A stretch of DNA of 64,000 nt from positions 62,001-126,000 of the forward strand of contig CANQEH010000003.1 of NCBI GenBank assembly GCA_947594835.1. The letters are read 5' to 3'. Under the pieces are notes generated by a model, which ran no database searches, had not been told where the DNA came from, and saw only the letters and a list, made by a program, of their open reading frames with translations. This stretch comes from an uncultured Acetatifactor sp. (GTDB lineage: Bacteria; Bacillota; Clostridia; Lachnospirales; Lachnospiraceae). Positions 25,945-26,353 of the stretch are shown piece by piece. Numbering within the stretch: position 1 is the stretch's first letter; each line of letters begins with the position of its first letter. The translations under genes were made by a program, and so were the position numbers.

Positions 25945-26017
25945 AGCTGAAAATGGGACTTGAACCCACGACCCCTTCATTACGAGTGAAGTGCTCTACC
26001 AACTGAGCTATTTCAGC
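25945..26017 (-). tRNA. tRNA-Thr (anticodon CGT)
   Basis: The minus strand folds as a full cloverleaf. The acceptor stem is GCTGAAA / TTTCAGC, the D arm contains GCTCAGTTGGTAGAGC, the anticodon arm is CTTCA-CTCGTAA-TGAAG, and the T arm is GTGGGTTCAAGTCCCAT. The anticodon CGT reads the threonine codon ACG. CCA is not encoded. No integrase or repeat of the 3' end is seen nearby. Confidence 0.95.
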
Positions 26018-26194
26018 ATCTTTGCTGCACCCTCAAAGCGCAACAAAGTTATTATAGCAGTTCCCGTTTCTTTTTTCAACTATTATTTTTCCGCCGGGTA
26101 TTATTCTTTTTCACATTTTTATTCTATTGGTAATTGTCAGAACAAAACTTCTATGATAAAATACCGTTCAAGGACTTTTGTAAGTAGCCCTACA

Positions 26195-26283
26195 TAGAAA
26201 AACCACCCTAAACTTTGGCAGGTTGCAGGGTGGATTTTCTACTTTGTTAATCGGTCAACCCACCTTGTGGGCGGTTGTTCCTT
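26195..26283 (-). ncRNA. candidate small RNA with its own promoter and terminator
   Basis: From a strong minus-strand promoter (26290-26317) a transcript of about 89 bases would end at a perfect-looking terminator: TAGAAAA-CCACCCT / AGGGTGG-TTTTCTA with T-rich tail (26195-26241). Inside it is AACCGCCCACAAGGTGGGTT, which can form a second hairpin. No credible ORF fits. It lies between the nucleoside permease and tRNA-Thr. Confidence 0.5.
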
Positions 26284-26289
26284 TCTTTT

Positions 26290-26317
26290 AGTATAACCCT
26301 TCCAAAGGAATTGTCAA
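26290..26317 (-). promoter_or_regulatory. strong promoter facing tRNA-Thr
   Basis: On the minus strand a consensus TTGACA (26312-26317) and TATACT (26290-26295) are 16 bases apart. Confidence 0.7.
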
Positions 26318-26353
26318 CCTTTTTATCGTCTTCTACCTTCCTATCTCTCCCGC

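Follow-up and report, generated by a model that had tools for sequence, protein, structure and literature searches.

A probable antitoxin RNA beside tRNA-Thr, from a dispersed type I cassette of Lachnospiraceae whose toxin half is deleted here

The small RNA unit beside tRNA-Thr

In the window, by which we mean the whole stretch of 64,000 nucleotides analysed from an uncultured Acetatifactor sp., a small RNA unit on the minus strand neighbours a tRNA-Thr(CGT) gene (25945-26017), where an initial annotation of the sequence had placed it. The promoter described there as near-consensus (TTGACA-16-TATACT; 26290..26317, minus strand) matches the consensus at 11 of 12 positions, with TTGACA at 26317-26312 and TATACT at 26295-26290, 16 nt apart. 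Taken by itself, the promoter match is within chance expectation (3 promoter-like sites in 1.5 kb vs. 1.0 ± 1.2 in shuffled sequences); the unit is raised above chance because it is recurrent: this genome has 11 copies, and other species share an exact 22-nt core. The RNA gene, of ~80 nt, spans 26203..26283 on the minus strand (alignment; covariance model score 100.5 bits, E 8e-21), and its transcript would start ~7 nt past the -10 element. The near-invariant core of the family, CAACCGCCCACAAGGTGGGTT (26257..26277, minus strand), forms the 5' hairpin; this core and both promoter hexamers are unchanged across 11 of 11 copies in the genome.

The gene ends in an intrinsic terminator (26203..26233, both strands; sequence, folding and alignment) whose stem, CCACCCT/AGGGTGG, pairs 26203-26209 with 26227-26233 around a 17-nt loop (26210-26226). 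A T-run flanks the stem at either side, and the terminator is therefore bidirectional, common to the two convergent transcripts considered below. It is missing from the list of a consensus scanner because that scanner is limited to loops of 3-8 nt. The perfect terminator of the initial annotation, with no ORF between it and the promoter, agrees with these data: folding of 26190-26282 (minus strand) gives -32.4 kcal/mol (z = -3.9, with 0 of 200 shuffles equally low), and the minus strand between promoter and terminator contains no ORF of ≥50 aa.

The further suggestion that the unit can form alternating hairpins stands in part. RNAalifold pairs AACCGCCC with the 3' arm of the terminator and GGTGG with its 5' arm, which makes the alternation physically possible; when the sequence is folded singly, on the other hand, the local 5' hairpin is preferred (pairing probability 0.69 vs. 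0.08). Compensatory base changes are nearly absent from the alignment, in which the helices scarcely vary, and covariation is for this reason uninformative as proof of the RNA structure. When the window was searched against Rfam release 15, the tRNA was the only match above the gathering score, and with an intact array as query at a relaxed E-value the best sub-threshold match had E 0.29.

Sister copies, the convergent peptide gene and the deletion

The nucleotide search for copy number and context that the initial annotation recommended yielded 11 copies in the same genome (80-100% identity, E 3e-66 to 4e-16), the exact core in other species (at least 115 genome stretches, nearly all from Lachnospiraceae), and a peptide ORF convergent with the RNA. 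Of the 11 copies, contig C4 has four as a ~395-bp tandem array, C2 and C9 have a pair each, and C30, C21 and C3 a single copy each, that on C3 being the window copy; those inspected sit among ordinary chromosomal genes. A terminator-only remnant of the cassette (L241; G000:C36:178-285) adjoins another tRNA-like gene of this genome. The peptide gene, an overlooked coding partner that the sister copies have on the other strand, is intact in 8 of the 10 other copies (28-33 aa, hydrophobic, with its own promoter and Shine-Dalgarno (SD) sequence), frameshifted in one C9 copy, and missing from the C21 copy and the window. It encodes MGNHFDFKDMLTFGIFLLALLTFIFTFCK and close relatives, has a strong SD (e.g., GGAGGTGATGCCTATG), and runs towards the RNA gene.

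The encoded product is a small hydrophobic membrane peptide of 28-33 aa with a span of ~18 hydrophobic residues, and it is conserved as a protein. Both the pN/pS ratio of ~0.24, which indicates purifying selection, and the entropies at codon positions 1, 2 and 3 (0.61, 0.24 and 1.04 bits) come from sequences chosen by a partial amino-acid motif and are somewhat biased by that choice. The SD is folded in the predicted toxin mRNA (paired probability 0.84-0.88); long-distance pairing between the 5' and 3' parts of this mRNA is unsupported (mean probability 0.10).

Relative to the complete copy on C30, the window lacks 146 bp, namely the toxin leader and nearly all of the ORF, from just past the AAGGA of the toxin mRNA start up to the last three toxin codons. 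An independent view of the deletion comes from the window pieces 26102-26175 and 26175-26331, which match other copies separately, 146 bp apart. Alignment places the scar at 26170..26187 (plus strand), where the start of the toxin mRNA (AAGGAC) is joined at ~26175 to the last three codons and the stop codon (TTT TGT AAG TAG). The window still has the toxin promoter (TTGTCA-17-TAAAAT, its -10 preceded by TG; 26134..26162, plus strand; promoter scan and alignment), the stop codon, the terminator common to both transcripts and the complete antitoxin gene. With one of the two partners of a type I toxin-antitoxin system present, the small RNA gene of the window is, as read from these alignments, the intact antisense-RNA half of a predicted toxin-antitoxin cassette whose toxin half is deleted. 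Both halves of the earlier guess, "a remnant or a real regulator", were therefore right. The label "orphan" fits the window copy but not the family, in which ~70% of the copies have a convergent toxin gene.

At the matching tRNA-Thr/permease spacer of three congeners (G049, G012 and G047), DNA corresponding approximately to 26085..26340 is absent. Either a ~400-bp cassette therefore arrived here and then lost its toxin, or the others lost the cassette. By sequence comparison, the unit acts as dispersed cassettes do, the site being empty in the congeners.

The old toxin promoter of the window would yield a short RNA (26134-26233, plus strand) with full antisense complementarity to the orphan antitoxin's 3' half; such an RNA might act as a decoy. 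Within the window antitoxin (26203-26277, minus strand), CCACCCTGCAAC is perfectly complementary over 12 nt to the toxin leader GTTGCAGGGTGG; none of the other copies in the genome has CCACCCTGCAAC.

Coupling of RNA and peptide, and their distribution

Among 135 distinct exact-core loci with enough flank, 93 had an intact convergent toxin (96 reported, minus three ORFs that were unrelated by our own reading), 8 showed the toxin motif but no SD or start could be recognised, and 34 had no toxin; SD variants such as GGGGG were allowed in this screen. Loci retrieved by covariance model or similarity rather than by the exact core had a convergent hydrophobic ORF in 36 of 46 cases (a few of them repeat fetches of copies from the window's own genome), and diverged RNA members retain shortened versions of the core.

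For a reciprocal test, a profile of the peptide alone, blind to the RNA, was run over 250 sampled genomes of the family. It gave 80 good matches, 74 of which had a convergent antitoxin match, the stop codon and the antitoxin end being a median 12 nt apart. Of the 6 exceptional peptides, one has a diverged antitoxin (E 1.7e-7) and five have no convincing antitoxin match at the expected place, several of these five showing a shortened peptide or an interrupted terminator. The pairing at 74 of 80 peptides and the common terminator point to an antisense RNA whose 3' end would overlap the toxin transcript. Conversely, 27 of the 93 strong antitoxin matches in the 250 genomes have no toxin. Toxin without antitoxin thus amounts to ~6% and antitoxin without toxin to 29-31%, and this asymmetry, with the toxin almost never alone and the antitoxin often alone, fits the toxin-antitoxin prediction.

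Near 7410 in L026 and near 6261 in L112, the partner of the antitoxin core is a peptide of canonical Hol_Tox type (MMNTYEVLTLLILNNTFIVALLT...) and the terminator sequence is different; the 5' module of the RNA and the toxin type are apparently exchangeable. Another locus (L084, near 1320-1341) retains the core with a different terminator sequence and no toxin nearby, and in a congener at least 6 cassettes or antitoxin copies follow one another in tandem on one contig (L155; G013:C2:59921-61891).

The covariance model found the RNA in 64 of the 250 sampled family genomes (63 of 249 genera). Matches in a class-wide sample were confined to Lachnospiraceae, and those outside Lachnospiraceae in a phylum-wide sample were weak, mostly terminator-like and without the core, on which grounds we rejected a spread beyond the family. 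The core was also seen on contigs of bins labelled Phascolarctobacterium, Bacteroidales and Bacteroides (L053, L055 and L087); these three out-of-family records are metagenome bins and may be mis-binned, or may reflect transfer.

The initial impression that similar sequence recurs near mobile elements in Clostridia holds for the recurrence, which is found in Lachnospiraceae, but the mobile link is mostly unsupported. The cassette RNA is carried by three mobilizable Enterocloster bolteae plasmids (no gene is listed at the site in the collection's table, which is incomplete). A search of 50,697 phage records gave no match, one of 2.9 million viral contigs gave 4 stretches, and the copies inspected in this genome have ordinary chromosomal neighbours.

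Proposed mechanism, related systems and orphan antitoxins

Taken together, the architecture, the coupling, the deletion and the empty site make it very probable (~0.88) that 26203-26283 (minus strand) is the antitoxin RNA belonging to a dispersed type I toxin-antitoxin cassette, and that the window copy has lost the leader of the toxin and nearly its whole ORF by deletion. We further infer that the peptide would be toxic, that the cassette would be transcribed, and that the RNA would neutralise the peptide by an antisense mechanism. An intact cassette would have two promoters facing each other, one driving a ~220-nt mRNA that has its SD folded in a hairpin and encodes a single-span membrane peptide of ~29 aa, the other driving the ~80-nt antitoxin. 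Both transcripts would end in one palindromic bidirectional terminator, and the 3' half of the antitoxin would therefore be perfectly antisense to the 3' UTR of the toxin mRNA. Pairing would start between the two complementary terminator loops, and duplex formation would then block translation and/or trigger cleavage of the duplex, with loss of the toxin mRNA. The window keeps the antitoxin unit intact, and its former toxin promoter may still give a short transcript that codes for nothing.

Type I toxin-antitoxin modules are known, in Clostridia among others (PMC6563280). A close organisation is that of pAD1 par (Fst / RNA I-RNA II), with which the present cassette shares convergent promoters, a bidirectional terminator common to both transcripts, an SD in a 5' stem-loop and a short antisense RNA (PMC7472228). 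A YUNR U-turn loop is known in that system (PMC7472228), and the toxin-side terminator loop here has CUUUG, which fits this motif. The two differ in that the toxin is unrelated to Fst in the profile searches run (no match to an Fst model in NCBIfam), the PXXXG motif is absent from our alignment, and the DRa/DRb direct repeats were not found, the two 5' leaders here being alike as an inverted repeat. A second contact between antitoxin and toxin leader, as in pAD1 par, is also unsupported, since their duplex is no stronger than with shuffled leaders (mean z -0.7).

By profile score, the peptide is at the edge of Pfam Hol_Tox (PF16935), the TxpA-like type I toxins, which are likewise very short single-span hydrophobic peptides. 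The profile matched 17 of 17 representatives, the best one above the curated cut-off; scores of 25.0 and 35.2 bits exceed the gathering cut-off of 23.3 bits, and the others listed, which are the majority, lie below it at 13.5 to 21.7. The canonical peptides of L026 and L112, which share the RNA core, strengthen the likeness (L112, when tested, scored 35.2 bits), whereas the N-terminus here is FDFKD and canonical members start with YEVLxLxI. Two other models, ComI (pBS32, NF052249) and PepG1 (NF041589), match the hydrophobic segment weakly (best E 1e-4 and 4e-3), far under their equivalog cut-offs (55 and 70 bits), and NCBIfam contains no model naming the peptide. The C. difficile modules (CD2517.1-RCd8, CD2907.1-RCd9 and others) resemble the cassette in combining a convergent toxin and antisense RNA in Clostridia with many paralogues, but their toxins have 34-53 aa and lysine-rich tails and several lie in prophages or beside CRISPR arrays, compared with 28-33 aa at chromosomal intergenic sites of Lachnospiraceae (PMC6563280). 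The same article cites a survey that placed TxpA-like and Fst-like sequences in C. bolteae (PMC6563280). The system is thus of a known kind, and the family is apparently uncatalogued. The survey behind the C. bolteae statement is reportedly that of Fozo et al. 2010.

Orphan antitoxins match the promoter consensus at a mean of 9.1-9.3 of 12 positions, compared with 9.5 for paired antitoxins and 7.0 for random sites, and are therefore either young or still used. A serious contender, a little short of an even chance, is that the window copy is only a dead remnant, in which the antitoxin persists because the toxin deletion is recent and nothing removes the antitoxin. The internal deletion of the toxin ORF, the independent deletions of other orphans (e.g., L274 and L278) and the relic terminator surviving on C36 are consistent with this reading, whereas the promoter and the 22-nt core are whole both in the window and in many other orphans, some of them retrieved with no demand for an exact core. 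The retained promoters would also suit a functional window copy, acting in trans on paralogous toxin mRNAs or protecting against incoming toxin plasmids (anti-addiction), as would the CCACCCTGCAAC complement, leader duplexes slightly stronger than those of cognate antitoxins, and the presence of the cassette on E. bolteae plasmids. We consider such a function unlikely, given duplex energies of -44 to -52 kcal/mol with other toxin mRNAs vs. -90 to -124 kcal/mol in cognate pairs, the observation that mostly only cognate type I antitoxins are effective in C. difficile (PMC6563280), and the fact that a recent deletion accounts equally well for intact promoters. More doubtful still is its generalization, by which toxin-less antitoxins of Lachnospiraceae would form a trans-acting chromosomal immunity layer against paralogous or plasmid type I toxins, the repeated independent toxin deletions being selected for.

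The C-rich and G-rich single-stranded segments of the RNA, and the ~30% of loci without a peptide, could instead indicate a stand-alone family of regulatory sRNAs whose targets in trans are C/G-rich ribosome binding sites, in which case the peptide ORF would be a passenger; that >90% of the peptides lie at a near-fixed convergent distance from the RNA, that the peptide is conserved and that the terminator is common to both make this very improbable. The end of a mobile element, or the leader or attenuator of a lost resistance gene, can hardly be what recurs here and was rejected, for in spite of the dispersed copies, the empty site and the mobilizable plasmids, no transposase or common cargo adjoins the copies in the loci read, no ORF lies downstream of the RNA in the same orientation, and the sole constant neighbour is the convergent peptide ORF.

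As the antitoxin half of a type I toxin-antitoxin cassette, the window RNA would belong to a widespread, multi-copy and apparently unannotated family in a dominant family of gut bacteria, both halves of which annotators could find by the 22-nt core and the peptide signature FDFKD...FGxFxLALLTF. How often the antitoxins lack a toxin is the aspect that merits further work. The window copy and the other orphans would serve as natural toxin-deleted controls for asking whether RNA antitoxins act without their toxin.
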